NCBI GenBank assembly: GCA_016784605.1
Contig: JADHUI010000006.1
Location: 1 to 64,000, forward strand
Length of the DNA stretch: 64,000 nt
Source: Fidelibacterota bacterium
GTDB taxonomy: Bacteria; Fidelibacterota; Marinisomatia; Marinisomatales; UBA1611
Direction of reading: 5' to 3'
Shown here: positions 13,270 to 34,447 of the stretch, piece by piece
Layout: the number at the start of each line of letters is the position of its first letter
Numbering within the stretch: position 1 is the first letter of the stretch
The notes under the pieces: model-generated
The model's database searches: none
What the model was told of the DNA's origin: nothing
What the model saw: only the letters and a program-made list of their open reading frames with translations
Translations under genes and position numbers: made by a program

Positions 13270-13270
13270 C

Positions 13271-16192: not shown

Positions 16193-16196
16193 AATT

Positions 16197-17918: not shown

Positions 17919-19165
17919 TGGCTGTTTTTCAATATCTAACCAAGGACGAGGATGGAAACCGTAAAGAAGGTGAAATCCATGCTGATTCCTTAGATATTGC
18001 CGCTCAAAAGTTATCAAGTGGAGGCATGGTTGTCGTTAACTTGAAAGAAGTGGATACAACATGGGATTTTCTGGGTCCATTTCTAGATGAAGTTTCCTTG
18101 TCCATTGAACGATTTAAAAACCGTATTCCATTAAGTAATATAGTTTTCTTTACTCGGCAATTATCAACAATGTTTTCCGCAGGACTGACAATCGAACGTG
18201 CCATTATGGGTCTTGCTCTGGAAGAAAAACATAAAAAATTCAAAAAAGTATTAACAAATGTTGGTGAAAATATTCGTAAAGGGCTCAACTTGTCTGAATC
18301 GCTAGAAAGACATCCGGGAGTCTTTTCCAATTTATTTGTTGCTTTAACAAAAGCGGGTGAAGTGAGTGGAAACTTAAATGATATTTTAGATCAATTGGCC
18401 ACCTATTTAGAAAACTTGGATGATACGCGACGAAAAGTTCGTTCTGCAATGAATTATCCAATTTTCATGGTTGTTTTTCTTGCGAGTATGATTGGGGCAA
18501 TGTTCATATTTATTATACCAAAATTTTCAGAAGTTTATGAACAGTTAGGGGCTGGATTACCTGGAGCGACAAGAGCTCTTGTGAATTTGAGTGATTGGAT
18601 AAGTTTTCATTTTTACAGCATGTCTATGGTGTTGATTATGATCATTGTTGGACTTTGGCTTATTTCAAAAACCAAAAAAGGGGGCTATATCTTTGATTCT
18701 GTTTTTTTAAAACTCCCTGTTTTCGGGCCATTAATTGACCAATCTATATTGAATAAATTTTGCAAAACATTTGGAATACTTTTAGGAGCGGGGGTTCCAG
18801 TTTTAGATACAATGGCTTTATTAAAAAAAGTTGTAGATAATCGAGTTTACGAAAAAGCGATTGAAGATGCGGCTAATTATATTCGAGATGGATATAATAT
18901 CTCAACAGCATTAAGAAGAACGGAAGTTTTTCCTTCCATTTTACTTCAATTAGCTTCCACGGGTGAAGAAACAGGTGAACTGGATTCTCTTTTAGATCGA
19001 GCTGCAGATTATTATTTTAAACAAGTGAATGCGCTTGTTGATAGAATGACTTCCTTAATTGAGCCCATTCTAATTTTAGCTGTGGGTGCAGTCATTGCTT
19101 TGATGGTGGTTATCACTTATTTGCCCGTATTTTATTTGGGATCAGCGTTGCAGTCTGGATTATAA
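17918..19165 (+). CDS. pilC: PilC/GspF-like inner-membrane platform protein
   Basis: The 415-residue protein has two repeated T2SSF domains (about 60-190 and 265-390), the first starting with NIVFFTRQLSTMFSAGLTIE, the family signature, and the second with KFCKTFGILLGAGVPVLDTM. Three transmembrane helices lie near 165-190, 220-245 and 380-405. PilC is the rotor-like platform on which PilB and PilT act. It overlaps its neighbours by one base on both sides (TAATG), indicating strict co-translation. Confidence 0.96.
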   Translation: MAVFQYLTKDEDGNRKEGEIHADSLDIAAQKLSSGGMVVVNLKEVDTTWDFLGPFLDEVSLSIERFKNRIPLSNIVFFTRQLSTMFSAGLTIERAIMGLALEEKHKKFKKVLTNVGENIRKGLNLSESLERHPGVFSNLFVALTKAGEVSGNLNDILDQLATYLENLDDTRRKVRSAMNYPIFMVVFLASMIGAMFIFIIPKFSEVYEQLGAGLPGATRALVNLSDWISFHFYSMSMVLIMIIVGLWLISKTKKGGYIFDSVFLKLPVFGPLIDQSILNKFCKTFGILLGAGVPVLDTMALLKKVVDNRVYEKAIEDAANYIRDGYNISTALRRTEVFPSILLQLASTGEETGELDSLLDRAADYYFKQVNALVDRMTSLIEPILILAVGAVIALMVVITYLPVFYLGSALQSGL

Positions 19166-19815
19166 TGGATATTGTGAAAATTATTCTCCCTTTAATTCTT
19201 GGTGTGGCGGCTGCTTCAGCGATGAAATATGTTTTCATCTTTTTTAATGTAGAAAAACCTAAATCAGTATCAAATCTGCCAATTTATGAATTAATGATGG
19301 GTCTTTTATGGGCTTGGGCTTTTGTTAAACTCCCTTTATTTGAAGCAGGATTATTTTCAATAATTACATTAATCATAAGTGTCATTGCATGGATTGATTT
19401 AAAATCATTTAAAATTCCATTACTCCTTATCGCTCTATCAGGATTAATATTATTTGGAGCTATTTTAGTGGGGCAAATTCCATTATCGTCCGCATTATGG
19501 GGTTTAGGTATTGGCGCGATTATTCCTTGGGTTATTATGGTTGTTACATCTTTATTTACCAAACGGGATGGAATGGGAATAGGCGATTTCCAATTAGGAT
19601 TCATTCTTGGCATTTGGTTAGGACCCGTTCGAATGGCACTCACATTATTTACAGCAAGTTTATTCAGCTTGTTAACATGGACATTTATTTCTTTGTCCTT
19701 GGGATTTGATAAAGACCGCGCTTTACCATTTGCCCCTTTTTTAGTTTTCGCAGGATTAGATATTTATATAGCTAGTTATTATTACCCAAAATTTTTCCAC
19801 CATTTGATGATTTAA
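19165..19815 (+). CDS. pilD: Prepilin leader peptidase (A24), short form without the methyltransferase half
   Basis: The 216-residue, all-helical membrane protein carries both catalytic aspartates of A24 prepilin peptidases: Asp78 in the AWIDLKSFKIP stretch and Asp141 in GMGIGDFQLG. It cleaves the leaders of the pilin-like proteins encoded upstream. Full-length PilD (about 260-290 residues) has an N-terminal cytoplasmic N-methyltransferase domain with two CxxC pairs; none is present here, where residues 1-40 are simply one membrane helix and a short loop. Short peptidases of this kind are known (for example TadV/CpaA types). Position at the end of the pilus operon, sharing one base with pilC, supports the role. 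Confidence 0.85.
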   Translation: MDIVKIILPLILGVAAASAMKYVFIFFNVEKPKSVSNLPIYELMMGLLWAWAFVKLPLFEAGLFSIITLIISVIAWIDLKSFKIPLLLIALSGLILFGAILVGQIPLSSALWGLGIGAIIPWVIMVVTSLFTKRDGMGIGDFQLGFILGIWLGPVRMALTLFTASLFSLLTWTFISLSLGFDKDRALPFAPFLVFAGLDIYIASYYYPKFFHHLMI

Positions 19816-19829
19816 TTAGAGAGGAATTA

Positions 19830-22800
19830 ATGAAACACAAATTATTATTAATAAGCATTTTTACAGTAGCAGTCAGTTTGGCGGCGGATATTCCAACATC
19901 AAAAGTTGAAGATGGTTTTTCATTTCGAGGGATTCAAAATGGAAAACAAACAATCGGATTTGAAAATATCAACTTTTCTTTAAAAACAATTGAACATTCT
20001 GGCAAAGTATATCAGAAACCGGAATTATCATCTGCTGGATCTGTTGCTGAAGAAGGTGAACCGTATTTACCGTCAGTTACAACCTATTATGCTATTGAGC
20101 CTGGAAAAACATTCCAAGCTCAAATTGAGATTTTGGAATCTGAAGTCATTGAAAATATCAATATCATTCCGTTCCATGGCTGGGATAAGGATTCATTTGA
20201 TCCCGAAACACCTTTAGTTAGAAATGCGTCTCTTTATTCTGTTAATCAAAATTTCCCTGATAATATTGTTCAAGTATCTGAACCTATCGTCATGAGAGAA
20301 TTAACGATGGTTAAAGTGACTATTACACCTTTTCAGTATAATCCCGTCACACAAGAATTAACGGTTATTCATGAAGCTAATATTACAATGGAAGCTAATG
20401 GAACAATTGATGCAGGGTTTCGCCCAGCAACTCGTTCACGCGCTTTTGAGCCTATGTATAAATCATTGCTTGTTAATTATGAAGACTACAACAGAGATGG
20501 AGTCTCTTATCAGCGCCCATCTATTTTATATGTTATTCCTTCCAATATTGGCAATCTAATGTCAACGATTGAATTATTGATGGATTGGAAACACCGATTA
20601 GGGTATGAAGTCAATTATGTATCCAGTTCAAATGTTGTAAATAACACGACCAATTTAAAAAACTACATAGAAGATGCTTATGAAACATGGGATAATCCAC
20701 CGGAATATGTGACTTTCTTTGGAGATGCTAGTGGCACGTATGATATTCCAACTTATTATGAAAATTGGAGTGGTTATAATGGAGAAGGAGATCATCCATA
20801 TTCTCAATTGGAAGGATCCGATATTTTCCCTGAAGTATTTCTCGGAAGAATGTCCTTCTCAACTCAATCTCATTTAAACACGATTGTTTCAAAAATATTG
20901 AATTATGAATCTTCACCTTATATGGGAGAAGATTGGTTTACAAGAGCCTGTTTAGTGGGCGATCCATCTACATCTGGGATTTCATGTGTTATTACAAATG
21001 AAAACATTAATTCTATTTTAGATTTAAACGGGTATACTGATGTGAATACTGTTTATAGCGGATCCTTTCCTTCTCAAATGGTTAGTGGGATAAATGAAGG
21101 AATTTCATTTTTTAATTACCGTGGATATTACGGCGTAAGTGGCTTTACAAGCTCAAATGTAAATAGCACGACGAATGGATTTATGCTTCCCGTAGCAACG
21201 GTTATTACTTGTGGAACAGGTTCATTTGGTGGTGATTCCATTGCTGAATCATTTCTTCGAGCAGGAACAGCTTCTAATCCTAAAGGAGCTGTTGCAAGTA
21301 TTGGCACAGCTACTACTGGAACGCATACCATGTTTAATAACTTAGTGGACATGGGTTTTTATTATGGAATATTTATAGATGAAATAGAAACGGCTGGTGC
21401 GGCTTTAATGCAAGGTAAATTGTATTTAGCCAAGGGGTATCCATCAAATCCAAATGATTTTGTGTCTATTTTTACACACTGGAATAGTTTAATGGGAGAT
21501 GCTTCGCTTCAAATGTGGACTGAATTTCCATCTACCTTTAATGTGGATTATGAAAGTTGGGTGATGTCCGGGACAAACTACATGGATATACATGTAGGTA
21601 ATGGGCCTGTTTCAGTTAAAGATGCCTGGGTAACCATTCTGAGAGATGGAGACATTTTTGAATCAGGATATACAAACCAATCTGGAAATGTAACGCTAAA
21701 TATTCCTTCATCGGATGAAGGTGAAGTATTAATCACTGTTTCTAAAAGAAATCATGTCCCGTATCAAGGTTCCTTCCAAATATATAATCCCAGTGTGAAT
21801 GTAAATCTCGTGGAAGATTATGTAACGTTTAACGATGATAACAATGGCCAGTCCTCTGGAAATAATGATGGAATGATAAATGGGGGTGAAACGATTGAGT
21901 TATATATTCCATTTAAAAATTATGGAAGTGAAACAGCCAATGAATTAAGTGTATTTCTTTCAACCGATAATTCTCAAGTAAATTTTGTGAATGGTGAATT
22001 AACAATTGGAAGTATCGATGTGCAGCAAATGGTCATACCAGAAACGCCATTTGTTTTAACCATAGAAAATGGTGTAAGTGAAGGAATAGATATTCCCATT
22101 ATGGTGAATATTTCTGATAATAATGGCGGCTCATGGACTGGATTAGTTCATCTTCAAACCCGAGGTAATAATATTACAGCTCATGATGTGAATGTATTAG
22201 GAAGTAGCGATAATGTTTTAGAATCTGGGCAAACATCTCAAGTTGAAATAATTTTATCCAATAGTGGCTCAACGAATGCGGTCGCATTAACGGGAACCAT
22301 TATTAGCCCTTCTCCCATGATTGAAATTGTGGATAATATTGGTACTTGGACCATGATTGGAGCAGGTTCTGTTGGATCAAATTCAACCAATACATTTGAA
22401 ATATCTGTTTTAGAAGGGACAATCCCAGGAACAATGGTACACCTTATCATGTATCTAGAATCCAGTGATGGCTATGAAACGAATATTGTTGTGCCAATTC
22501 AAATTGGAGTTCCATCTATTTATGATCCCTTAGGACCAGATGATTATGGCTACTATATATATGACAGCGGTGATGCCTTATATAATTTGGCTCCGTATTA
22601 CTCTTGGATTGAAATTGACGACCGCCAAGGTGGACTGGGATTTCACCTTAATTCATTAACGGATTCTGGTAACAATGGTGATGATGTTGAAACGGTTACT
22701 CTTCCATTTTCTTTCAAATTTTATGGACAATCCTATGACGAGATAAGTATTTGCAGTAATGGATGGATCGCTATGGGTGAATCCACTTTGGAATCTTTTA

Positions 22801-23420
22801 GGAATTATGAATTACCTGGACCAACAGGCCCGTCTCCAATGATAGCTGGTTTTTGGGATGATTTAAAATTAACGAATGGGGGGCGTGTTTATACGTATTA
22901 CGATCAAGCAAATCATCAATATATCGTTGAATGGTCACAAGTTAGAACATACCAAAATAATTCAACAAACACCTTTCAAATTATATTGAGAGATCCCGCT
23001 TATTATTTTGGACCAACCGGCGACGGTGAAATATTGATTCAGTATAAAGACTTTAATAACACATCCTATGGCAATTATGGGTGGGGACAAACTCATGGAA
23101 ATTATGCCACTGTAGGGATTGAAGATCATACAATGACAATTGGATTAACCTATACTTGGAATGACCAATACCCAACAGCCGCTATGGAACTTGGAGATGA
23201 AACCGCAATCCTTATTACGACACGCGGCAGTGAAGTTCGTTTATTTGGTGATTTAAATATGGACGAAGTGATTGACTTATTCGACATTTTAGGATTGGTT
23301 GATTATATTCTGGGTTCAGGGTCACCTATAAACCCGTATTTAGGAGATATTAACCAAGATGGAATGATCAATGTTCTTGATATGCTTGGTTTGGTCCAAA
23401 TAGTGATGGGGTGGCAATAA
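19830..23420 (+). CDS. C25 (gingipain)-like secreted protein ending in dockerin-type repeats
   Basis: The 1196-residue protein has a signal peptide (about 1-19), a gingipain propeptide-like region (to about 220), a C25-like domain (about 230-590), beta domains, a domain with NGW and FWDDL motifs (about 905-1125) and two C-terminal dockerin type I-like repeats beginning GDLNMDEVIDLFD and GDINQDGMINVLD (about 1140-1196). The nucleophile-position Cys461 is present (VITCGTG), but the canonical gingipain GHG histidine is replaced in NYRGYYG (429-435). Activity is therefore uncertain. It lacks the sorting domain of its relatives in this window. It starts 14 bases after pilD with a GAGGAA ribosome site, so it may be co-transcribed with the pilus operon. 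Confidence 0.82.
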   Translation: MKHKLLLISIFTVAVSLAADIPTSKVEDGFSFRGIQNGKQTIGFENINFSLKTIEHSGKVYQKPELSSAGSVAEEGEPYLPSVTTYYAIEPGKTFQAQIEILESEVIENINIIPFHGWDKDSFDPETPLVRNASLYSVNQNFPDNIVQVSEPIVMRELTMVKVTITPFQYNPVTQELTVIHEANITMEANGTIDAGFRPATRSRAFEPMYKSLLVNYEDYNRDGVSYQRPSILYVIPSNIGNLMSTIELLMDWKHRLGYEVNYVSSSNVVNNTTNLKNYIEDAYETWDNPPEYVTFFGDASGTYDIPTYYENWSGYNGEGDHPYSQLEGSDIFPEVFLGRMSFSTQSHLNTIVSKILNYESSPYMGEDWFTRACLVGDPSTSGISCVITNENINSILDLNGYTDVNTVYSGSFPSQMVSGINEGISFFNYRGYYGVSGFTSSNVNSTTNGFMLPVATVITCGTGSFGGDSIAESFLRAGTASNPKGAVASIGTATTGTHTMFNNLVDMGFYYGIFIDEIETAGAALMQGKLYLAKGYPSNPNDFVSIFTHWNSLMGDASLQMWTEFPSTFNVDYESWVMSGTNYMDIHVGNGPVSVKDAWVTILRDGDIFESGYTNQSGNVTLNIPSSDEGEVLITVSKRNHVPYQGSFQIYNPSVNVNLVEDYVTFNDDNNGQSSGNNDGMINGGETIELYIPFKNYGSETANELSVFLSTDNSQVNFVNGELTIGSIDVQQMVIPETPFVLTIENGVSEGIDIPIMVNISDNNGGSWTGLVHLQTRGNNITAHDVNVLGSSDNVLESGQTSQVEIILSNSGSTNAVALTGTIISPSPMIEIVDNIGTWTMIGAGSVGSNSTNTFEISVLEGTIPGTMVHLIMYLESSDGYETNIVVPIQIGVPSIYDPLGPDDYGYYIYDSGDALYNLAPYYSWIEIDDRQGGLGFHLNSLTDSGNNGDDVETVTLPFSFKFYGQSYDEISICSNGWIAMGESTLESFRNYELPGPTGPSPMIAGFWDDLKLTNGGRVYTYYDQANHQYIVEWSQVRTYQNNSTNTFQIILRDPAYYFGPTGDGEILIQYKDFNNTSYGNYGWGQTHGNYATVGIEDHTMTIGLTYTWNDQYPTAAMELGDETAILITTRGSEVRLFGDLNMDEVIDLFDILGLVDYILGSGSPINPYLGDINQDGMINVLDMLGLVQIVMGWQ

Positions 23421-23440: not shown

Positions 23441-24622
23441 ATGACTGTTTTCCCATTAATCATACTTGGGTTTTTATTGTTATTCCTGTTGGGGGCAGGT
23501 TTGCTAGAATTCCAGTTTCATCAACGTGCGATTGCCACGATTCCTTTAAGAATTCATGTAAATGGAACTCGAGGTAAATCAAGTGTAACACGGCTTATTG
23601 CAGCAGGATTGCGTGCGGGAGGTTTGCGAACATTTGCAAAAACAACTGGTACTGCTCCTCGCGTGATTGATATGGATGGGAAAGACCGAATTATACATCG
23701 ATTAAGATTACCATCCATTGGTGAACAAGTGAGACTAATGTCCTTTTTCTCGAAAGAAAAACCTGATGCAATGGTTATGGAATGCATGGCCGTCCAACCG
23801 CAATATCAATGGATAGCCGAGCATCAAATGATTCAATCCCATATTGGCGTTATTACAAATACGCGACCAGATCATTTGGAAGAAATGGGACCAACAGAAG
23901 AAGATGTTGCATTTTCTTTATGCAATACCATACCCGAAAAAGGGTCTTTTATCACTGGAGAAGTTGAGAAATATTCCATATTAAAGAATGTAGCTGATTC
24001 ATTAGATACATCATGCAAATTATCAGATGAATCCACTATAACTGAAGATGAATTGAATGGGTTCACCTATTTAGAACATCCCCAAAATGTAGCAGTTGCG
24101 CTAGATGTTTGTAACGTAGTTGGGATCGAGAGAAATATAGCTTTAAAAGGGATGCAGAATGTGCAGCCAGACTTGGGCGCCTTAGTCGTTTGGAAATGCG
24201 GCTTTGGCGACAAAACAATATCATTCGTCAATGGAATGGCAGCCAATGATCCCGTCTCAACCTTACAAATTTGGAAATTTATTATTGACCGATATCCTGC
24301 AGAAGGTGGGACGTGTATTTTATTAAATTCACGTGAAGATCGCCCAGTTCGCACTCGGCAAATGATTGAATTAACGCTTGAGCATATAAAACCCGATCAT
24401 TTTATTGTGCGGGGGAATAAAGTAAGTGCATTGTTAGATCGTCTTCACCACCATTCACCCATGACACAATTCCATACGATTGGATTAGACAAACCAACAC
24501 AACAAACTATCAACATGATAGACCGATTGCCCAATGATTCTTTGGTTTATGCCATTGGGAATCAAGTCGGAGCGGGACAAGAAATATTAAACCAGTTAAA
24601 CCGGGTTAGAGTAAATGGTTGA
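23441..24622 (+). CDS. pgsB: Poly-gamma-glutamate synthase ligase subunit PgsB/CapB
   Basis: The 393-residue protein has an N-terminal membrane helix (about 3-22) followed by a Mur ligase-type ATP site, NGTRGKSSVTRL with G42-S47, and a family TNTRPDHLEEMG stretch near 148-160. CapB/PgsB activates glutamate as acyl phosphate and adds it to the gamma-carboxyl chain at the inner membrane with PgsC. The pgsC start lies within its last 8 bases. Size and motif set match the family well. There is a 20-base gap from the previous gene and no clear promoter. Confidence 0.94.
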   Translation: MTVFPLIILGFLLLFLLGAGLLEFQFHQRAIATIPLRIHVNGTRGKSSVTRLIAAGLRAGGLRTFAKTTGTAPRVIDMDGKDRIIHRLRLPSIGEQVRLMSFFSKEKPDAMVMECMAVQPQYQWIAEHQMIQSHIGVITNTRPDHLEEMGPTEEDVAFSLCNTIPEKGSFITGEVEKYSILKNVADSLDTSCKLSDESTITEDELNGFTYLEHPQNVAVALDVCNVVGIERNIALKGMQNVQPDLGALVVWKCGFGDKTISFVNGMAANDPVSTLQIWKFIIDRYPAEGGTCILLNSREDRPVRTRQMIELTLEHIKPDHFIVRGNKVSALLDRLHHHSPMTQFHTIGLDKPTQQTINMIDRLPNDSLVYAIGNQVGAGQEILNQLNRVRVNG

Positions 24623-25058
24623 AGTTTCCATTGGTTTAGGCATTGTACTCAGTTTAATCTTATCTGAATCTTTAGGGGTTACAGCCGGAGGCATTATTGT
24701 TCCAGGATATATTTCTCTTTATTTACATGAACCGTTACAAGTATTAATCACGTTTGCGGTTGCTGCGATTGTATATGGAATTATACATTTATTAAGTAAA
24801 GTGATGTTTCTGTATGGGAAAAGACGATTGGTTTTAGCTTTGATTCTAGGCTTTTTTCTGGGATATATTTCTCGACATTTTATTTATTCCCCTTTTGATG
24901 AATTGTCATTTGCTGTGATTGGGAATATTATTCCTGGACTTATTGCAAATTGGATGGATCGCCAAGGAGTTGTGCGGACATTATCGGTTGTAATTGTAAC
25001 AGCTGTCCTCGTGAAATTGCTTGTCATGATGTTTTTTGGGGGACAACTCTTTGTTTGA
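24615..25058 (+). CDS. pgsC: Poly-gamma-glutamate synthase membrane subunit PgsC/CapC
   Basis: The 147-residue protein consists of about five transmembrane helices. The N-terminal stretch GIVLSLILSESLGVTAGGII and the following VPGYISLYL are characteristic of CapC/PgsC. It forms the membrane part of the synthase with PgsB and probably the polymer's inner-membrane path. Overlap with pgsB (8 bases) and with the next gene argues for fixed stoichiometry. No PgsA/CapA homologue (the usual third subunit in Bacillus) is found in the window. Confidence 0.94.
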   Translation: MVEVSIGLGIVLSLILSESLGVTAGGIIVPGYISLYLHEPLQVLITFAVAAIVYGIIHLLSKVMFLYGKRRLVLALILGFFLGYISRHFIYSPFDELSFAVIGNIIPGLIANWMDRQGVVRTLSVVIVTAVLVKLLVMMFFGGQLFV

Positions 25059-26202
25059 TTATAAAAAACAGCCCTTTATTCCAATGATTCAAAAAACATC
25101 CACTCTAGTAGGTCTTGCCCTTTTAAGCATCCTGTGTTTCACATTTGCTATTTCTAATAAAGTAATTCATGTATCTCCTACATATGATTTAAAAGTAAAA
25201 GCCGCGGAACTTATGAAACAGGGTATGGCAGACCTTAAAAAAGCACGTATGGAAAAAGGAATTTTTGTGGATTTAGAAAATGATCCCAATGAAACTGGAT
25301 TGATTGGAAGCCCTTTTAGTTTGACAACAACTGACGAAGGTGACTTAGACGCTAAACTTACCACGCTTGATCCAAATTTATCTGCTGCTATGGTTGAGTT
25401 ATATCACCAAGCAGGACTCAAAGCGGGTGATACAGTTGCCGTTTTATTAACAGGTTCAATGCCTGGTGGAAATATTGCAGTGTTAACAGCCTGTGAAACG
25501 ATGGATATAACCCCAATTACAATTACATCTGTAGGCGCTTCTCAATGGGGAGCGAATCATGAAGATTTTACATGGTTAGATATGGAAAAGCACCTTTATG
25601 ATAATCAATCTATTTCATTTCGAAGTATTGCTGCGTCCATTGGCGGTAGAAATGATATGGGGAGACTATTGAGTCCTAAAGGACGTGAGCTGATTACTAA
25701 GAATATTGAATTACATGATTTGCCATTAATTCATTATAATCGGTTGAAAAACAATATTCAAGAACGATTAAGACTATTCTCGAATGTCAAAAATATTAAA
25801 TCCTATGACGCATTCATTAATGTTGGTGGCGGTGTTGCAAGTTTAGGGACATCTTTTAATCACAGATTATTGCCACCGGGAGTGGTTCATCGAAATGATG
25901 TGACCGACATTACTCGTCCGGGAGGCATCGAAGGTGTTTTATCACATTTTGCAAAACAGAATGTGCCTATTATTCATATTTTAAACATTAAAGCACTTAC
26001 TGAATCATTGAACCTCCCGTTTGCGCCCATCCCTCTTCCGGAAATTGGATCAGGTAAATTGTATGCTGATGAAACATATAATCTCATTATTACATTTATC
26101 GCTTTTTTGATTATTGCAGGTGCTGTGGTTGGAGTCGGTATTCATAGTAAGAAAAAAATTAAGGAACATTTATTGCAACATGAACCAGACAGTCTTTTAT
26201 AG
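25051..26202 (+). CDS. pgsW: Poly-gamma-glutamate system protein, PgsW-like
   Basis: The protein has an N-terminal membrane anchor, a central alpha/beta domain (about 60-330) with a VAVLLTGSMPGGNIA stretch and a GGGVASLGTSFN stretch, and a C-terminal transmembrane helix followed by a basic tail. This plan and its place right after pgsB-pgsC match the family annotated as 'poly-gamma-glutamate system protein', whose biochemical role is unknown. The start is uncertain: TTG 25051 has a G-rich stretch 8 bases upstream and overlaps pgsC by 8 bases; ATG 25084 would give a 372-residue protein with no visible ribosome site. Confidence 0.78.
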   Translation: MFDYKKQPFIPMIQKTSTLVGLALLSILCFTFAISNKVIHVSPTYDLKVKAAELMKQGMADLKKARMEKGIFVDLENDPNETGLIGSPFSLTTTDEGDLDAKLTTLDPNLSAAMVELYHQAGLKAGDTVAVLLTGSMPGGNIAVLTACETMDITPITITSVGASQWGANHEDFTWLDMEKHLYDNQSISFRSIAASIGGRNDMGRLLSPKGRELITKNIELHDLPLIHYNRLKNNIQERLRLFSNVKNIKSYDAFINVGGGVASLGTSFNHRLLPPGVVHRNDVTDITRPGGIEGVLSHFAKQNVPIIHILNIKALTESLNLPFAPIPLPEIGSGKLYADETYNLIITFIAFLIIAGAVVGVGIHSKKKIKEHLLQHEPDSLL

Positions 26203-27064
26203 AAAAACCATCTTATCCATTTTTTGTATCCTATTTACAGGTACGCTAGATGCGAAATTATTGAAACCTTCAGAAAATGGGGAAAAGAAAGAAATACTGA
26301 TTATTAATAAAAAAAGACGTATTTATTATCCTATTCAAGATGAAGGATTAGTGTATTCAGTTAATGGCCCCGTACGACTAGAATTTATTTCACGGTTCCC
26401 TGTTTTGAAAAAAAATAAAAAAAGTCATTCATTTCAGTACAAAATTATCGTGGATACTAAAGATACGATTCAAGTAAATCATCGTTACAAAATTCAAAAA
26501 AGGATTAAATCCGTTCAACATCCAAAGCATAATTATACTTATTCAGGAAATTATTTTATTAATATTCCAAAAGGGGAGCACCAAATTCAATTGCTCTCTT
26601 CGGGAAAATCTAAATACCCAGTTCTTTCGCGTGTTTTAGCAAAAGAATTTGAACAAGTTGGAGAAGATCAAAAACGAATCATTATGCCCATGGTTCATAA
26701 ATCGGCTATTCCTTTAACTATCCAGGGTAAAAAGATGGCCTATTTTGAATGTTCCCAAGATATTCCGCTACAGATAGAATCCAAGGGACCTAAATTGATC
26801 AAAATATTAAGCCGGTTATCTTTTAATGAATGGATGGGACAAGAATCATCCTATCGTATTAGAGTTAGAAGTGGACAAAAAGTAGTTGGAACTTTCTATT
26901 TTAATACAGAAAGATCATCTGAAACAACCATACCTGACCATCCCGAATGGGTGCCGGGGAAATGGCGATCCTGTGAAATTAAAGTTCCAAAAGGGAAACA
27001 TATTTATACGATTGAAGTTCTGGATGTAAATAAAACTGTTTTGGCCCGCTTTATTGAGTATTAA
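26180..27064 (+). CDS. Exported protein of unknown family following pgsW
   Basis: I chose ATG 26180 because it gives a normal signal peptide (residues 1-25, ending TGTLDA) and a 294-residue product; the longer frame start is inside pgsW. The mature protein is basic and beta-rich, without cysteine pairs or recognisable motifs. It contains two similar halves, each ending in a 'P-K-G-x-H-x-x-x-I/L' strand (IPKGEHQIQLLSSG near 127 and VPKGKHIYTIEVLD near 270), suggesting a tandem beta-sandwich. It overlaps pgsW by 23 bases and abuts the next gene exactly. Probably periplasmic or surface-bound; a positively charged protein would suit contact with the polyanionic glutamate polymer, but that is inference. 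Confidence 0.7.
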   Translation: MNQTVFYRKTILSIFCILFTGTLDAKLLKPSENGEKKEILIINKKRRIYYPIQDEGLVYSVNGPVRLEFISRFPVLKKNKKSHSFQYKIIVDTKDTIQVNHRYKIQKRIKSVQHPKHNYTYSGNYFINIPKGEHQIQLLSSGKSKYPVLSRVLAKEFEQVGEDQKRIIMPMVHKSAIPLTIQGKKMAYFECSQDIPLQIESKGPKLIKILSRLSFNEWMGQESSYRIRVRSGQKVVGTFYFNTERSSETTIPDHPEWVPGKWRSCEIKVPKGKHIYTIEVLDVNKTVLARFIEY

Positions 27065-28084
27065 ATGATAAAACAACTATCATCCTTATTCTTGATTTCA
27101 GCTCTTCTGAGTAATACGCCGACCTATTGGACTTTTGGGCTAGAAAATGGCTACGATTCAAATGTTTTACGTTTCTCTGAACTAGAAAAAGGAGAAGCTG
27201 ATCTATATCCTGAAATTATGGGCGGAATGAATACATTTGATTCACATGTGTTGAAAGGGTCACTTTATGGTAAAAAAGATATTTTTTTAAAGGGGAATGC
27301 ACTCACAATTACAGGATTAATAGGCCTAACAAATTATTCTCAAGTTGCTTTAAAACAATACGAATCCTATCATCTGAAAGTAGCCTATAAATTAGGGTCC
27401 TATAAAAAAATTGAATATTCCATTAATCATTTAGATCAATATTACTTACGTCATTATATCAATCGAGATATTTCATCCACATTTTTAGCGGCTTGTGCGT
27501 TTTCTGATCGAGATCAGAAAGTAGGTTTTTCACATCCTTTATTTAAGCGAACATGGGTAAATGTGTGGGGTGGGTATTTACAACGATATTATAATGCACC
27601 TTTTACAGAATTTGATTTAGATATTTATTATGGACGAATAAAATTAAATCATTCTATACGCCGGTTTGGGAAAGTCGGGTTTCAATTTGAACAGGGAAGA
27701 GCTCATAATAGCACTTTCCAAAATACAGCAAGAGCAAGCGATTTTGATCGAAGTTATTCTTATGCTCAATTTTATTTACCCTTGAGTAAAACAAAGCAAA
27801 ACAAATGGACCGATGGAATCGGAGGGGCTATTCGAGCAGATATTCGATTATATGATGCTGAAAATTTGGGAGATCCACTCCATGCAGGCAGAAATCATGT
27901 GGATATGAAAATTGACTATTGGTTGAAGAAAAGTATAACTGAAACGATATCAATCAAATCAACAGTTCGTCATCGTTGGAGGAAAACGGACTCTCAGTTT
28001 GAGTGGGTAGAATCCCTAAAGAGTTTTAATCAATGGCAAGTTTGGTGCAAAATAGAATGGAATATGATTTATGATCAATATTAA
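27065..28084 (+). CDS. Predicted outer-membrane beta-barrel protein in the PGA operon
   Basis: The 339-residue protein has a signal peptide (about 1-18) and then alternating short amphipathic strands rich in Tyr, Trp, Phe, Gly and Asn. These begin with TYWTFGLENGYDSNVLRF, a pattern typical of the first strand of outer-membrane barrels. The last residues (WQVWCKIEWNMIYDQY) end in an aromatic, as a final barrel strand would, though with Tyr rather than Phe. The start ATG follows the upstream stop directly, and the tail overlaps the next gene by 14 bases. I do not recognise the family; it could be a polymer export pore or a scaffold. Confidence 0.68.
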   Translation: MIKQLSSLFLISALLSNTPTYWTFGLENGYDSNVLRFSELEKGEADLYPEIMGGMNTFDSHVLKGSLYGKKDIFLKGNALTITGLIGLTNYSQVALKQYESYHLKVAYKLGSYKKIEYSINHLDQYYLRHYINRDISSTFLAACAFSDRDQKVGFSHPLFKRTWVNVWGGYLQRYYNAPFTEFDLDIYYGRIKLNHSIRRFGKVGFQFEQGRAHNSTFQNTARASDFDRSYSYAQFYLPLSKTKQNKWTDGIGGAIRADIRLYDAENLGDPLHAGRNHVDMKIDYWLKKSITETISIKSTVRHRWRKTDSQFEWVESLKSFNQWQVWCKIEWNMIYDQY

Positions 28085-29102
28085 TAAAACTTTATTAACA
28101 AGTGTAATGGGCATCCTCCTTTTATCGGGATGTTTGGAACCTAAAACAGAATCCATATGGGAAGTGGAAACAAGATTTGTATTAGATACATCTGGTTTCT
28201 GCCGCTTTGTGGATATTCACAATGATACCGCTTATGTTGCAGCCGGACAGGCGGGGGTCCAAATTTGGGATTTGAATTCTGTCACAAAAATTATTGGCTT
28301 AGATCAATATTCGGCTTCCCAAGACTTAAGTGATATTGCCCAAATAGAATATGCACCAACAGTGAAGAAAATATTTGCTCTTGAGAATAATAGTCGAGTA
28401 GTCATTATGGATGTGATTCATGGTGATTCTCTCGCTGTTTTAGGTGAAGAAATGAGTGAAAAAACACGCGAAATCCGCATCTTAGAAGGGAGTGAATCTT
28501 ACATCATTTTAGCGGCTGATAATGATGATGGGTTAAAATGGAATAAATTTGATTATTTTGCTGATTGGGGAATATGGTCTAATGTAGCAGGAGATGAATT
28601 ATCAACTCCGGGAAAGCCCATGGGATTAGATTATTTAGATGGAAATATTGCATTAGCCGTCGATCAACAAGGTGTGGAATTGTGGCGATTAGATTCGCTG
28701 GGTGCTGACCCTGTATTTGTTAATCGATTAGATACACCAGGGAATGCTGAAAAGGTTACGCTTACGGAAACCGGTTTATTTGTAGCGTGTGATGATGCGG
28801 GCGCTCGGCATATTCCGTTAGCCGCATTCGTAGAATCGACGGGGAGAACGGAACCTGTGAATCCATACACACCAACACAATTTGCAGAAGATTTAACCGT
28901 TGACCATATTGCTGTTTCCGGGGATATAGCCGTATTATCCGTTGGGGGGAAAGGGATTGCCATATATGATATTTCCAATCCGAGGAGTCCCGAACCGAGA
29001 GGCATATTTGATGTTGGTTATACCTACTATTCCACATTTTGGAATGAATCTTTAGTTGTTTGCACGCGCGAAGGCTTAATTATTTTAAACATTATTCAAT
29101 GA
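28071..29102 (+). CDS. LVIVD-type beta-propeller lipoprotein
   Basis: The 343-residue protein has a textbook lipoprotein signal (MGILLLSGC, Cys21 lipidated). The mature part consists of repeats with the LVIVD-like pattern 'V-x-G-D-x-A-x-x-A-x-G-x-x-G-x-x-I-x-D-I/L', for example AYVAAGQAGVQIWDL near 57 and AVLSVGGKGIAIYDIS near 285, so a beta-propeller is likely. Such proteins sit on the outer membrane and usually bind partners. It overlaps the barrel gene by 14 bases and ends in an ATGA overlap with the next gene, making it part of the same translational chain as the PGA genes. Confidence 0.75.
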   Translation: MININKTLLTSVMGILLLSGCLEPKTESIWEVETRFVLDTSGFCRFVDIHNDTAYVAAGQAGVQIWDLNSVTKIIGLDQYSASQDLSDIAQIEYAPTVKKIFALENNSRVVIMDVIHGDSLAVLGEEMSEKTREIRILEGSESYIILAADNDDGLKWNKFDYFADWGIWSNVAGDELSTPGKPMGLDYLDGNIALAVDQQGVELWRLDSLGADPVFVNRLDTPGNAEKVTLTETGLFVACDDAGARHIPLAAFVESTGRTEPVNPYTPTQFAEDLTVDHIAVSGDIAVLSVGGKGIAIYDISNPRSPEPRGIFDVGYTYYSTFWNESLVVCTREGLIILNIIQ

Positions 29103-32100
29103 AAAGACGAAAGAAAATGATAAAAAATATATTACTATTATCCCTTTATTTTTGGGGCACCTTATTTGGACAGAATTTACTCGATGAAGCTGGTATTCCA
29201 ATTCGGCAAGGGATTCACATCGAATGGTTTAAAACTGTGAGTCCTGGAACAGATGGAACAGCCATATTTGTTTGGTCAGATAACCGGTTTGGTCCACGGA
29301 ATATTTTTGCTCAAAAAGTGAGTGGAGAAGGAGAATTACTTTGGGGAGAAGGTGGAGCCGTTGTAACTGATTTACCAGGAAGACAAGAAGACCCAGTCTC
29401 TATATCAGACGGAAACGGTGGTGTTTATATTGCATGGATTGATTATCGTTTTGACGCTGAAGGGGATGTCTTTTATCAACATGTAGATAGCAATGGGTAT
29501 CGTTTATTAGAAGATAATGGTATTCCGTTAGCGTTGATTCCAGGGAGACAAATATCCATTAATATGTGTACCGATAGTTTGGGAGGTGTTTTTGTAACGT
29601 GGCAAGATAAACGTAATCAAATTAATGAAGATATTTATGGGACGCATATTTCTGCAAATCATGAAGTTATAGAACCAAGTGTGGGTGTTCCTATTATTAT
29701 AGCTGGTGGAACTCAAGCCGAAAAAAGTATTGAATATGCTGGAAATCATGAAGCGTATATCGTTTGGTCAGATGCAAGAAATGGTGGAAATATGGATATC
29801 TATGGTCAAAGATTAGATATGAATATGAATTTACTGATGGCGACTGAAGGATTCCCCGTTGCCGTCACATCTTCACTAGAAACGCGCCCGCGGGTGACAT
29901 ATATGAGCAATAATCAGTCATTTGTCACTTGGAAATCGGGCGACGAAAGTTCAGAAATTTTATATCAAATAATGGATGAAAGTGGGTTCATCCTAACGGA
30001 GCCGGCTAAAGTTTCACAATTTGATGCAATTCAAAAATCTCCCCGAGTAAAAAGAAATGCGGATGGAGAAGTTTTCTTAAGTTGGACCGATTTAAGATAT
30101 GATACAATTGATGGTCATATTTTCTTTCAAAAAATCGGATTAGATGGTTCCGTGTTGTGGGGTGATGGTGTTCAATTAGATGACTTTGGTGAAAAACACT
30201 TAAATGGTCGATTTGCACCAGATGAAAATGGTGGATTATACGTCGTTTGGGAGCGAGGAAGTAATCCTGATACAGATATTCCGCTTCAATATATTAATGA
30301 AGATGGGGATATGGTTTTATCAGACTTCTTTGTGACCAATGCTGATGGAAATCAAGATGCACCTAATGTGATTTTTTCTAATACGGATGGGCTCTTTACT
30401 ATTTATGGGGATGCATCATCAGGAAGCGTCAATTTGTTTGTTAACAGCTATTTAAATGGCAGTAATCAATGGGCATCCGATATTTTAGGTGCGACGGGAA
30501 TGGACGGCGATGTGAAGTATATACAAGGGTTTAATTCAAATATGGATGAAATCATTCTTTTGTGGGAAGATAATCGACACGCACAAAAAATATATGCAAA
30601 TCGGGCTGTCAATGAATCTTTAGAAGTAACGAATGGAAATCAAATTACCTTTTCAGATGACGATGCTTCAGACGATGATTTATCTTATCCGGTATATTAT
30701 TTTGATGGTGTCCATGTGTATGTTGCTACATTTGATGGGTCAGATACACCGAAATCAATGCGGATTAATAAATTAACAACCGATTTTGAAAATGTATGGG
30801 GCGATTCAGGTATAGCTGTTACAAGTATAGATGACCAACGTAATGGGATGCTCTTGGGGTTTGAAGAAAGTATTGGTTGCTTTTGGAGCGAATCAACCGC
30901 AATCAGCTTAGATATCCTATTCCAAAAGTATGATTCAGACGGGAATGCATTATTAGAAGAAGGTGGTAAAGTTTTATTGGATGGATGGAATGATGAATAT
31001 GTTTTAAATGTATTCAATACGCCTGATAATAATATAATGATTGTTTGGCTCGATAATGCTTGGGGAAGTACAACCATTAAAATAAAGAAAATTGATTTAA
31101 ATGGAAATTTAGCTGTTGGATGGTCTTCCAATGGAATAAATCTGAGTGAAACGGTTTACGATATTCAAGATATATCCGCTGAAGTCATTTCGGATGATGA
31201 TGGCATTTTTGTCGTTTGGCGACAAACAACCACAACTGAAACAGAAATATTTGGACAAATTATCGATTGGGATGGAAATATTATGTGGGAAAACGGCGGT
31301 CTGTCTATTTCAAATGCAGAACATGATCAGGTTAATCCATCTATGGATGTAGATCCTATTGGAAAAACAGCTTTTATTGCTTGGGAAGATTTACGTAATG
31401 GGAGTGATTATAATGTATTTGGACAAGAAATAGATCTAGTCAGTGGAGAATTAAATGGAGAAGCCGTTCAATTTTCTGCAGACACAACACAACAACTGAA
31501 GCCGTATGTTAAAAATATATTGCAGGACCAATATCTCATTTTATGGGAGGATGGACGTGGATTTTGGAATAATGATCCTTTAATGACTGGTGGGGCTGAC
31601 ATTTATGGCAGTGGATATGCTACATGGAATGGAATGACGTCAGAAATAGATGGTTTTCCTGTTGTGGCAAACTATCACGAACAGGGACAAGTTGAAGTCA
31701 CAAATTACAATCATGAATCGCAATATTTACTCCATTGGATTGATTTACGAAGCTCAGGTAAAGAAGATATTTATAATTATTACGGTCGAATTATTGAAGT
31801 GGCAGATTTACTAGACATTAAAGATGTGGATGAATATTGGGCCGATGATTTTACTCTTCATTCTGCATATCCGAATCCATTCAATGGAGCCATTCAGTTT
31901 GAATTTAATATGATGGGAACTCAACCAGTGGAATTTGCCATTTATGATTTAAGTGGACGGAAAGTAAATGATCGCTTGATTCTGCCCAACTCAGCTGGGA
32001 AATATCGAATTTCGTGGAATGGCAAAGATATGAATGGTGCGAATTTATCGAGTGGAATATATTTTTATCAATTCAAAGTTAATGAAGTAATAATAAAAGA

Positions 32101-32122
32101 TAAAATAACATATCTAAAGTAA
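29099..32122 (+). CDS. Large secreted beta-propeller-like protein with sorting domain
   Basis: I chose ATG 29099 because it overlaps the upstream stop (ATGA) and gives a signal peptide after a basic MKRRKK stretch; the product is 1007 residues. The body carries many repeats of about 55 residues with the pattern 'W-x-D-x-R-N-G-x-x-D-I-Y-G-Q' (for example IVWSDARNGGNMDIYGQ and FIAWEDLRNGSDYNVFGQ), which suggests one or two beta-propellers. The C-terminus (about 925-1007) is a FlgD/T9SS-like sorting domain starting AYPNPFNG and ending ITYLK. Probably surface-exposed or released; function unknown. Confidence 0.78.
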   Translation: MKRRKKMIKNILLLSLYFWGTLFGQNLLDEAGIPIRQGIHIEWFKTVSPGTDGTAIFVWSDNRFGPRNIFAQKVSGEGELLWGEGGAVVTDLPGRQEDPVSISDGNGGVYIAWIDYRFDAEGDVFYQHVDSNGYRLLEDNGIPLALIPGRQISINMCTDSLGGVFVTWQDKRNQINEDIYGTHISANHEVIEPSVGVPIIIAGGTQAEKSIEYAGNHEAYIVWSDARNGGNMDIYGQRLDMNMNLLMATEGFPVAVTSSLETRPRVTYMSNNQSFVTWKSGDESSEILYQIMDESGFILTEPAKVSQFDAIQKSPRVKRNADGEVFLSWTDLRYDTIDGHIFFQKIGLDGSVLWGDGVQLDDFGEKHLNGRFAPDENGGLYVVWERGSNPDTDIPLQYINEDGDMVLSDFFVTNADGNQDAPNVIFSNTDGLFTIYGDASSGSVNLFVNSYLNGSNQWASDILGATGMDGDVKYIQGFNSNMDEIILLWEDNRHAQKIYANRAVNESLEVTNGNQITFSDDDASDDDLSYPVYYFDGVHVYVATFDGSDTPKSMRINKLTTDFENVWGDSGIAVTSIDDQRNGMLLGFEESIGCFWSESTAISLDILFQKYDSDGNALLEEGGKVLLDGWNDEYVLNVFNTPDNNIMIVWLDNAWGSTTIKIKKIDLNGNLAVGWSSNGINLSETVYDIQDISAEVISDDDGIFVVWRQTTTTETEIFGQIIDWDGNIMWENGGLSISNAEHDQVNPSMDVDPIGKTAFIAWEDLRNGSDYNVFGQEIDLVSGELNGEAVQFSADTTQQLKPYVKNILQDQYLILWEDGRGFWNNDPLMTGGADIYGSGYATWNGMTSEIDGFPVVANYHEQGQVEVTNYNHESQYLLHWIDLRSSGKEDIYNYYGRIIEVADLLDIKDVDEYWADDFTLHSAYPNPFNGAIQFEFNMMGTQPVEFAIYDLSGRKVNDRLILPNSAGKYRISWNGKDMNGANLSSGIYFYQFKVNEVIIKDKITYLK

Positions 32123-32125
32123 AAC

Positions 32126-34447
32126 ATGAATAGAATATTTGCTCAATACATATTGGGTTTCTTGTGTATCTCAATTGGATTAAGTCAAGAGCTCGATCCT
32201 CGATACCATTCATTAGACGAAATAAATGGGTATCTTGAATCTCTTAATCAGGATCCTGAAATTGATTCTTTTTTTCGAGTGGACACAATCGGGTATTCGT
32301 CCCAAGAAAGTTTGCCTATTTTAGCGGTCATTATTTCCAATAATGTAAATGAGAGGGAAGATGAAGCTCGTGTTTTATTTATTGGACAAGTTCATGCAGA
32401 AGAAGTGATTGGTGTTGAAGCTGTTTTACAATTAATTCATGATTTAACCTATCCTGAGCCATCGCAACAAAATCATGTTAATATTTTAAGAGCCAATCTC
32501 GAAATTTGGATTATCCCAACAGCCAACCCGGAAGGTTTAAATGTCGTCCATGATGGATTAGATATGAGTTTTCGAAAAAATAAAAGAGACTTTTCTCCAG
32601 GCGGTCCCTTTGCAAATGGGATATTTGATTATGATCCTTCCGTAGGAAATGATATAGATGGTGTGGACCTTAATCGTAATTTTAATTTTAATTGGGCATT
32701 TGGAGACACATTTTTAGAACCCGACGCCAGCGATTATGCTTCTCACTATGATTATTACAAAGGAGAAGAACCCTTTTCTGAAGGGGAAGCGGTGGCCATT
32801 CGTGACTTAGCGATTCGGGAGAAATTTCTTTTTTCGATTGTATGGCATAGTTCACGGTCGGGTCGTTTATCAGAAAAAGTGTTTACATCGTGGTTGTGGG
32901 AAGGAACAAAACCTTCGCCGGATCTGGTTTATGTAAAAACATTGGCAGATAACTTCGCTTCAGAAATCGAGACTGAAGATGGCTCTGGCTCCTATTTATC
33001 TGTCTATAGTGGATCCCGTAATGGAAAGTTACATGACTGGTTTTACCGTGAAACGGGTTGCATTCAATACCTCATTGAATGTGGAACATCGAACCTTCAA
33101 CCTGACAGTACTTTATTAGAAAATACGATTGAGCGAATAAATCCAGCCATGTGGTACCTCATGGATAGATCCATTGGCTATTACATGGATGCATCTCAAT
33201 TGACTGGGATTGTTACTGATGCATCCACAGGCACTCCTATTCAAGGTGCTATTATCAAAATACTAGAACACACTGGATCTGTACTAAAACCACGTAAAAC
33301 GGATGAATTTGGACGATATAGACGTATTTTAGATATTGGGTCTTATACATTATCAGTTCGAGCGAAAGGATATGATTCTCAGACAATCAATGTGGTTGTA
33401 AATAATGCAGCTATTACACATCAAAATATTGGATTAAATCCAGCAGCCATGCATACACTTAATTTGACCCTTATTGATGAAGATGAAATGCCTTTGATAT
33501 ATGTAGGTTATTTGACATCAGAATTTGGTGTTGATACATTGACACTCGGCGAAGGCCTGAATACACTATATTTACCATCCGCATCTTATGATTTATTGAT
33601 TCCCATCGGCGGGTTAATCATACCATGGAAACGATCATTTGATTTGGACAGAGATTTAGGTTTTACGGCACATTTTATAAATGGGGATCTACAATTATTA
33701 AGTACATCTTGGCCATGGGAGAATGCAGAAGGTCCGTGGGTGGCAGGCGATGTTATTCTTAAAACTCAGGAAGATCTTTATTATGAAAATGGAGATACAG
33801 CATTAACCGAACAATGGATGGAATCAGAGTTGGTGGACGTGTCGGGGAAAAATCGACTTGTTTTAAAAGTGGATCATCGATATGAAACGGAATGGGATAA
33901 TGATCCTATCTCTATCTTAATATTAGATAATAATGATTCTCTTCTTGCACATAAATCGTGGACAGGTATGGCTTGGGAGAGTTTTCAAACAAATTATCTT
34001 ACAGCTATACACGAAAGTGGGTTTGATAGTGTTAAAATAAAATTAAGTTTTCTACCAGATCAATCTGTGAATTATCATGGATGGGAGTTAGAAGGATTAA
34101 CTTTGTTTTCGGTTATGGACGAATATCTTGGGACAACAATATCACAAGGGGGTATTACGCCAAAAATCCCCTTAACCTTAAATGGTATTTTTCCAAATCC
34201 ATCCCGAGGACAATTTCAATTAGATATTGGTTATTGGCCCGGCGGAAAAGGTGGAATGGCTGTTTATAATCTTTTAGGGCAAGAAATAGCTCAATATCCA
34301 ATAAGTCAATTGTCTGCTGGACGACATCTCATCCGATTTGACTTGGAGCAATCGGTGAATAAACTTTTAAGTTCTGGCGTCTATTTTATCGTTTTAAATA
34401 CAGATAGGGAAATGGTCACACAAAAATGCGTATTTATGAAAAATTAA
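32126..34447 (+). CDS. Secreted M14 zinc carboxypeptidase with sorting domain
   Basis: The 773-residue protein has a signal peptide (about 1-20) and an M14 domain to about 355 with zinc ligands His90 and Glu93 (HAEE), His241 (VWHS), an Arg in DLNRNF near 190 and the catalytic Glu318 (LIECGT). All key residues are present, so it is probably active. Next are a carboxypeptidase-regulatory-like beta domain (about 358-435), a jelly-roll-like region and a C-terminal sorting domain (about 690-773, beginning IFPNPSRG). It lies 3 bases after the previous gene. The substrate is unknown: M14 members cleave C-terminal residues of peptides, and some cut gamma-glutamyl bonds. Confidence 0.88.
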   Translation: MNRIFAQYILGFLCISIGLSQELDPRYHSLDEINGYLESLNQDPEIDSFFRVDTIGYSSQESLPILAVIISNNVNEREDEARVLFIGQVHAEEVIGVEAVLQLIHDLTYPEPSQQNHVNILRANLEIWIIPTANPEGLNVVHDGLDMSFRKNKRDFSPGGPFANGIFDYDPSVGNDIDGVDLNRNFNFNWAFGDTFLEPDASDYASHYDYYKGEEPFSEGEAVAIRDLAIREKFLFSIVWHSSRSGRLSEKVFTSWLWEGTKPSPDLVYVKTLADNFASEIETEDGSGSYLSVYSGSRNGKLHDWFYRETGCIQYLIECGTSNLQPDSTLLENTIERINPAMWYLMDRSIGYYMDASQLTGIVTDASTGTPIQGAIIKILEHTGSVLKPRKTDEFGRYRRILDIGSYTLSVRAKGYDSQTINVVVNNAAITHQNIGLNPAAMHTLNLTLIDEDEMPLIYVGYLTSEFGVDTLTLGEGLNTLYLPSASYDLLIPIGGLIIPWKRSFDLDRDLGFTAHFINGDLQLLSTSWPWENAEGPWVAGDVILKTQEDLYYENGDTALTEQWMESELVDVSGKNRLVLKVDHRYETEWDNDPISILILDNNDSLLAHKSWTGMAWESFQTNYLTAIHESGFDSVKIKLSFLPDQSVNYHGWELEGLTLFSVMDEYLGTTISQGGITPKIPLTLNGIFPNPSRGQFQLDIGYWPGGKGGMAVYNLLGQEIAQYPISQLSAGRHLIRFDLEQSVNKLLSSGVYFIVLNTDREMVTQKCVFMKN

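Follow-up and report, generated by a model that had tools for sequence, protein, structure and literature searches.

A run of six genes in a 64,000-nucleotide stretch of a Fidelibacterota genome (GenBank assembly GCA_016784605.1, contig JADHUI010000006.1, positions 1 to 64,000; hereafter the window) forms a real conserved genetic unit, and we think it probable that it encodes a poly-gamma-glutamate secretion system spanning two membranes. The block (Table 1) consists of pgsB, pgsC and pgsW, followed by genes for a basic exported protein, an outer-membrane beta-barrel and a propeller lipoprotein. In the system that we propose, PgsB and PgsC would work with PgsW, a cationic periplasmic guide and an exit barrel, with the propeller as an optional component.

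All six genes lie on the forward strand at the coordinates given in a first-pass annotation made from the sequence alone, and the open reading frames (ORFs) of the window bear out its account of six overlapping or abutting genes. The overlaps are 8 nt between pgsB and pgsC, 23 nt between pgsC and pgsW, 23 nt between pgsW and the basic gene, and 14 nt between the barrel and propeller genes; the basic and barrel genes are separated by 0 nt. The listed ORF of the basic gene opens at an upstream TTG (26114), but the start taken is the ATG at 26180, as first annotated, and the 23-nt overlap with pgsW is the commonest form of that junction among relatives. Promoter and terminator scans gave signals no better than those in shuffled sequence.

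The arrangement is more than chance, since the identical gene order recurs across the phylum. Among 81 regions compared by profiles—80 loci around PgsW, plus the window—the order is B-C-W-basic-barrel-propeller, and 75 regions have the basic protein, 74 the barrel and 65 the propeller; many of the gaps are contig ends. Of 245 genomes searched in the phylum, 100 have PgsW, 97 the barrel and 95 the basic protein, nearly always as an uninterrupted block; 95 of the PgsW genomes have the barrel and 94 the basic protein (Fisher p ~1e-59, a value that overstates independence because the genomes are related). More weight than to this value attaches to the distribution over genera (43 and 42 of 84) and to the occurrences at unlinked sites. 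Only two genomes have a barrel without PgsW, and in both this is because contigs end there: in G233 the contig breaks off within pgsW, leaving its C-terminal end beside the basic gene, and in G145 a barrel fragment terminates a contig of 3,380 bp. Five genomes have PgsW without the barrel; in three (G118, G136 and G223) the block is cut off where the contig stops, and the other two (G019 and G235) have a different cluster with a shorter PgsW (loci L087 and L096). The basic and barrel genes were thus not found away from PgsW genomes, the outcome expected from the co-occurrence that the first-pass annotation had put forward as a check.

The three synthesis genes were identified as first annotated, each above the cut-off of a curated family. 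PgsB matches the TIGR04012 equivalog at 407.1 bits (cut-off 222.7) and has a Mur ligase middle domain in Pfam; PgsC matches the TIGR04011 equivalog at 118.7 bits (cut-off 96.5) as well as PF14102 (CapC); and PgsW matches TIGR04332 at 302.8 bits (cut-off 100). As read from its sequence, PgsW has a transmembrane helix at each terminus with a predicted periplasmic domain between. It is the family membership of PgsB and PgsC, and solely this, that suggests polyglutamate as the polymer. PgsW, in the polyglutamate sense, is not named in any open biological paper that we found.

No PgsA/CapA homologue (PF09587) is present in the window, as had been noted, or in the 2.17-Mb, 89%-complete assembly to which it belongs; as a control, the family was detected in 7 of 14 other genomes. 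Within the phylum, 53 of the 100 PgsW genomes have no PF09587 match and 47 have some match, mostly as a domain of a ~1,590-residue protein (for example on G129:C106) and not as a PgsA of normal size. The check for a PgsA encoded elsewhere is thus negative in the genome at hand.

The product of the fifth gene, first annotated as a barrel, is modelled by AlphaFold (AF2) as an outer-membrane barrel of 14 long strands, with a predicted local distance difference test score (pLDDT) of 91.4 and a predicted template modelling score of 0.86, and all 14 strands show alternating hydrophobicity. The nearest folds recovered by Foldseek are CymA, OmpG, chitoporins, OprD-type porins, OprO and the PgaA barrel (4y25). 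Positions assigned as inward-facing by strand alternation, without coordinates or control porins, carry a net charge of +9 in the window protein, with a median of +8 in the family and a value above zero in 98% of 54 members. Two inward arginines, R129 and R306, are basic in all 54 members and a third, R261, in 89%. The barrel protein matches no Pfam or NCBIfam family above cut-off, and a scan of viral contigs with the barrel gave no match. There is a weak likeness to EpsL (TIGR03014), an exopolysaccharide-associated outer-membrane protein, confined to a 145-residue stretch and far below the family cut-off (24.6 bits against 275); it is seen in 7 of the 54 members, with a best E-value of 6.6e-6.

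The basic exported protein likewise has no Pfam or NCBIfam family above cut-off. Its AF2 model (pLDDT 92.9) is a secreted tandem beta-sandwich, all-beta and thus not a scaffold of tetratricopeptide repeats (TPRs) or other alpha-helical repeats, and no TPR family match was found in Pfam or NCBIfam. The mature protein has an isoelectric point (pI) of 9.8 and a net charge of +22; the family medians are 9.7 and +18, and the pI exceeds 8.5 in 96% of members. The two repeats (Table 1) are homologous to one another (hhalign probability 99.5%, E-value 1e-22). Foldseek matches the protein to tandem carbohydrate-binding modules (CBM51/CBM22) with an E-value of 4e-8. Over the whole chain, however, the TM-score reaches only ~0.25, probably through a different packing of the two domains; on this model the protein may be called a tandem binding-module-like sandwich, and nothing beyond that. 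Profile searches of PDB sequences with the barrel, the basic protein and PgsW gave no credible relative. An MtxA Ig-like domain was considered for the basic protein from a weak Pfam match in five relatives (best E-value 0.0015), and was dropped because the literature context of MtxA gave no link to polyglutamate. In a WOR-3/UBP14-like group the basic gene lies apart from the barrel and propeller genes, adjoining a response-regulator gene in L210.

The basic protein and the barrel share a domain in some lineages. In Eisenbacteria the barrel bears an extra copy of the domain of the basic protein at its N-terminus, and the barrel ORFs of L157, L180, L182, L177 and L186 have an N-terminal domain matching the basic-protein repeats with E-values down to 1.7e-14; shuffled sequences gave no such matches. 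A domain common to the periplasmic protein and the pore argues that both act on the same thing or touch. An apparent fusion of basic protein and barrel in L186 was rejected as a probable frameshift, because the basic protein goes out of frame at its end and is followed by another signal peptide.

The same genes are found well beyond the phylum. A scan of GTDB species genomes with a 10-row PgsW alignment gave 80 loci, among them ones titled Zixibacteria, KSB1, Calditrichota, TA06, WOR-3, Gemmatimonadetes, Eisenbacteria, Effluviviaceae, Latescibacterota, Krumholzibacteriota, UBP14 and Fibrobacter, although the last title is doubtful because that locus adjoins a Latescibacterota row in the tree. 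The trio of downstream genes recurs with pgsBCW in ten or so other lineages of the Fibrobacteres–Chlorobi–Bacteroidetes (FCB) type, and most of the other-phylum loci have the basic protein and barrel downstream of pgsBCW. Twenty PgsW genomes from other phyla were searched, and 19 have the barrel and 19 the basic protein, in one copy each, with both far from pgsBCW in several. One phylum of 39 genomes, to which the Zixibacteria-titled G245 and the Calditrichota genomes belong, has PgsW in all 39 and the barrel in 37; 35 of its 58 PgsW matches lie within 6 kb of the barrel, and the complete ones are all at least 370 residues long, whereas the unlinked matches are nearly all of 350 residues or fewer, or cut by contig ends. 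The two genomes of this phylum without a barrel have short-type PgsW only. The phylum of G252 is represented by 7 genomes, and PgsW and the barrel occur in the same three of them, ~7 kb apart.

A maximum likelihood tree of 66 PgsW proteins reflects this division. One branch with 100/99 support separates 48 proteins from system-bearing genomes or loci—including one (L183) from a genome with the basic protein in which no barrel was found—from 18 barrel-less ones, and the window PgsW is of the barrel-associated long type. The short-type genes often adjoin genes for gamma-glutamyltranspeptidase, N-formylglutamate-amidohydrolase-like (FGase-like) and AstE/AspA-like proteins, and racemases, so that glutamyl chemistry fits the PgsW family as a whole. 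Short-type paralogues occur in L096, L097, L196-L199 and L204-L207, with racemase genes in L096 and L097; no pgsB or pgsC was found adjoining PgsW in the short-type loci among L196-L207.

The propeller lipoprotein is less constant. It passes the Pfam LVIVD threshold (PF08309) narrowly, with one repeat at 22.3 bits against 20.2, and has a lipobox (LLSG-C21, the cysteine being residue 21) of a kind present in 45 of 63 complete family members. In most lineages it follows the barrel, and in the WOR-3/UBP14-like group (L208, L211 and L212) the barrel and a longer propeller (~515-530 residues) are paired away from pgsBCW. In the Calditrichota and Zixibacteria loci, where the barrel and basic protein persist, no propeller was found adjoining the barrel. 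The propeller is best seen as a barrel accessory. The pair in L208, L211 and L212 is preceded by a protein of 404-460 residues.

Table 1. Positions of the block genes, the repeats of the basic protein and the flanking genes in the window.
Feature	Position	Strand	Description
C25 (gingipain/PorU-type) peptidase, dockerin-like end	19830..23420	+	PF01364, 170 bits
pgsB	23441..24622	+	393 residues; poly-gamma-glutamate synthase ligase subunit; P-loop NGTRGKSSVTRL intact
pgsC	24615..25058	+	147 residues; inner-membrane subunit
pgsW	25036..26202	+	inner-membrane protein; TTG start, exact start uncertain
Basic exported protein	ATG 26180 to 27064	+	294 residues; candidate periplasmic guide
First beta-sandwich repeat of basic protein	26285..26659	+	residues 36-160
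Second beta-sandwich repeat of basic protein	26687..27061	+	residues 170-294
Outer-membrane beta-barrel	27065..28084	+	339 residues; 14 strands in model; candidate exit pore
LVIVD-type propeller lipoprotein	28071..29102	+	343 residues; optional accessory
Surface protein with type IX secretion system (T9SS) sorting tail	29099..32122	+	TIGR04183, 34.8 bits (cut-off 23); follows propeller

The block is flanked by genes for secreted proteins. A C25 peptidase gene ends 20 nt before pgsB, and downstream of the propeller gene T9SS-tailed proteins and an M14 peptidase continue the gene run. C25 genes adjoin the block in many Marinisomatota loci, and also in KSB1 and Eisenbacteria loci; the one upstream of pgsB is probably an accessory, lineage-specific neighbour, and the T9SS-tailed protein that follows the propeller is, judged from synteny, also a lineage-specific neighbour. 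PorU, a sortase, belongs to the C25 family, and by analogy a link between C25 peptidases and surface attachment is possible. A second C25 peptidase is encoded at 34426-37593, so that two C25 genes bracket the block. The genome also encodes SprA, the T9SS translocon (G000:C14:175795-181755), which fits with the sorting tails found on several proteins of the window. Farther upstream, co-oriented type IV pilus genes occupy 11881-19815 (a PilQ secretin, a Big_1 protein, PilB, PilC and a PilD-like A24 peptidase) and end 14 nt before the C25 gene; genes of PilC and PilD length lie there in many genera related to this one, though not in families farther removed.

Sequence or models give the PgsB, PgsC and PgsW families, the gene order, the co-occurrence, the barrel and beta-sandwich folds and the charge; the identity of the polymer, the order in which it is handed over, its passage through the barrel and the role of the propeller are inferred, as follows. 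Glutamate would be polymerised at the inner membrane by PgsB, an ATP-dependent ligase, and PgsC, which together would also move the chain outwards; PgsW, which has terminal helices flanking a large periplasmic domain, would replace PgsA as their inner-membrane partner. The tandem beta-sandwich protein would bind, shield and guide the polyanion in the periplasm and hand it on to the 14-stranded barrel, whose positive lumen would let it leave through the outer membrane, just as alginate leaves through AlgE. The propeller lipoprotein, at the outer membrane, may act as a gate, an assembly factor or an anchor. An export function, as first suggested for these genes, is well supported as a hypothesis by the conserved unit, the barrel model and the co-occurrence, since neither the co-occurrence test nor the barrel-fold test refuted it. 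Attachment or anchoring, the other role first suggested, has no such support, and the best candidate for it, the propeller lipoprotein, was not found beside the barrel in the Calditrichota and Zixibacteria loci.

The block resembles the Bacillus PgsBCA(E)/CapBCA(D)E systems in its PgsB ligase and PgsC membrane subunit, its gene order and the curated equivalogs, but PgsA/CapA gives way to PgsW, a periplasmic protein and an outer-membrane barrel are added, and there is no CapD or gamma-glutamyltranspeptidase in the block. The polymer porins known so far combine 16-18 strands with TPR scaffolds. In the alginate system of Pseudomonas the pore, AlgE, is 18-stranded, its partner AlgK is built of TPRs and the synthase is a glycosyltransferase in place of PgsB/PgsC; no sequence similarity was found. 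That system also pairs a separate periplasmic partner with an electropositive-lumen pore for a polyanion, AlgE thus being a precedent for a positive pore that exports a polyanion (PMC4118822). PgaA, the porin for poly-N-acetylglucosamine (PNAG), contributes one of the structural matches to the window barrel; its porin part is joined to a periplasmic scaffold, by which the polymer may be guided (PMC9384988); such fusion in synthase-dependent porins is like that of the beta-sandwich in Eisenbacteria. The PgaA scaffold is, however, made of TPRs and not of beta-sandwiches, has an electronegative groove for PNAG and its deacetylated form (dPNAG), and serves another synthase. In common with the Alg, Pga, Bcs and Pel systems, the block encodes an outer-membrane barrel with the polymerase, but it has no membrane glycosyltransferase synthase. 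Francisella, also a two-membrane cell, has a capA annotated 'poly-gamma-glutamate system protein' beside capB and capC (PMC5362203), in a three-gene locus with no outer-membrane partner described.

Several points weigh against the secretion system that we propose. No polymer has been demonstrated in any of these organisms; the nearest folds to the barrel are small-solute porins; the barrel, with 14 strands and no TPR scaffold, departs from known polymer porins; the charge of its lumen comes from strand alternation; and one genus (G173-G175, L100) keeps pgsBCW and the barrel with no detectable basic protein. (PgsW of this genus is longer, at 461 residues.) Moreover, Francisella capA carries the PgsW family name (PMC5362203) in an organism with no demonstrated polyglutamate capsule (PMC4688374), and the absence of a link between the Francisella locus and a capsule is the chief reason for caution over a polyglutamate product. 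PgsBCW could instead make a different product, for example a gamma-glutamyl-modified lipid, a glycan or a short oligomer, which the other three proteins of the block would then handle, or around which they would build the envelope. The Francisella capBCA homologues without a capsule link (PMC4688374) fit such a reading, as does the lack in the block of a dedicated glutamate racemase, gamma-glutamyltranspeptidase or polyglutamate hydrolase, in which it is unlike the short-type PgsW clusters. We consider a different product unlikely, though, as PgsB exceeds its equivalog cut-off by a wide margin (407 against 223) and PgsC by a moderate one (119 against 96), a cationic guide and lumen suit a polyanion, and at least one Gram-negative bacterium, Fusobacterium nucleatum, makes polyglutamate according to work cited in PMC3815933.

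It is very improbable that the three downstream proteins anchor or organise a surface polyglutamate, as in capsule attachment, in place of exporting it, with the barrel structural or sensing. The carbohydrate-binding-module-like fold modelled for the basic protein would suit binding, and the lipoprotein propeller adjoins the barrel even away from pgsBCW (L208, L211 and L212); polyglutamate would still need an exit through the outer membrane, however, for which the block offers no other candidate, and in some phyla the barrel and basic protein persist with no propeller beside the barrel. A last reading, in which the barrel and propeller, like the C25, M14 and T9SS-tailed neighbours, are parts or clients of type IX secretion and the pgs genes mere neighbours, is in our view slightly less probable still. 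C25 peptidases and sorting tails do flank the block, SprA is encoded in the genome, and the propeller has a faint match to PorZ (E-value 0.12). Yet neither barrel nor propeller qualifies as a T9SS component of the PorV/PorP/PorQ/PorZ kind, the barrel and its 53 relatives match no T9SS barrel model in NCBIfam, the Calditrichota and Zixibacteria loci keep the basic protein and barrel with pgsBCW where the C25 and T9SS genes are gone, and the barrel tracks PgsW at unlinked sites too.

The secretion system proposed here bears on how polyglutamate leaves a two-membrane cell, a question to which we found no answer in the accessible literature. Capsule typing defines the polyglutamate type by CapB and CapC plus accessory A, D and E proteins, CapsuleFinder counting CapA as accessory, and includes no outer-membrane component, while a diderm requires one or more additional proteins for passage across the outer membrane (PMC5542703). 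For Cloacimonadota, the accessible parts of two reports give polyglutamate genes without an exporter (PMC8542988; PMC13082233). No description of the barrel or the basic protein was found in the open literature, subscription literature and preprints lying outside the search.

If the proposal is true, a candidate outer-membrane pore for polyglutamate and its partner are now named, and the barrel is a marker for which PgsW clusters export across two membranes. The chances are about even that PgsBC, PgsW, guide and barrel make up an undescribed outer-membrane route dedicated to a polyamide, a counterpart of the alginate, cellulose and PNAG systems with candidates in about ten FCB-type phyla; synthesis by PgsBC is known, and the part that may be of a new kind is the polyamide exit through the outer membrane. 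As Marinimicrobia are found widely in the sea, a coat of polyglutamate would be relevant to their surfaces and to how they interact with phage, metals and carbon.

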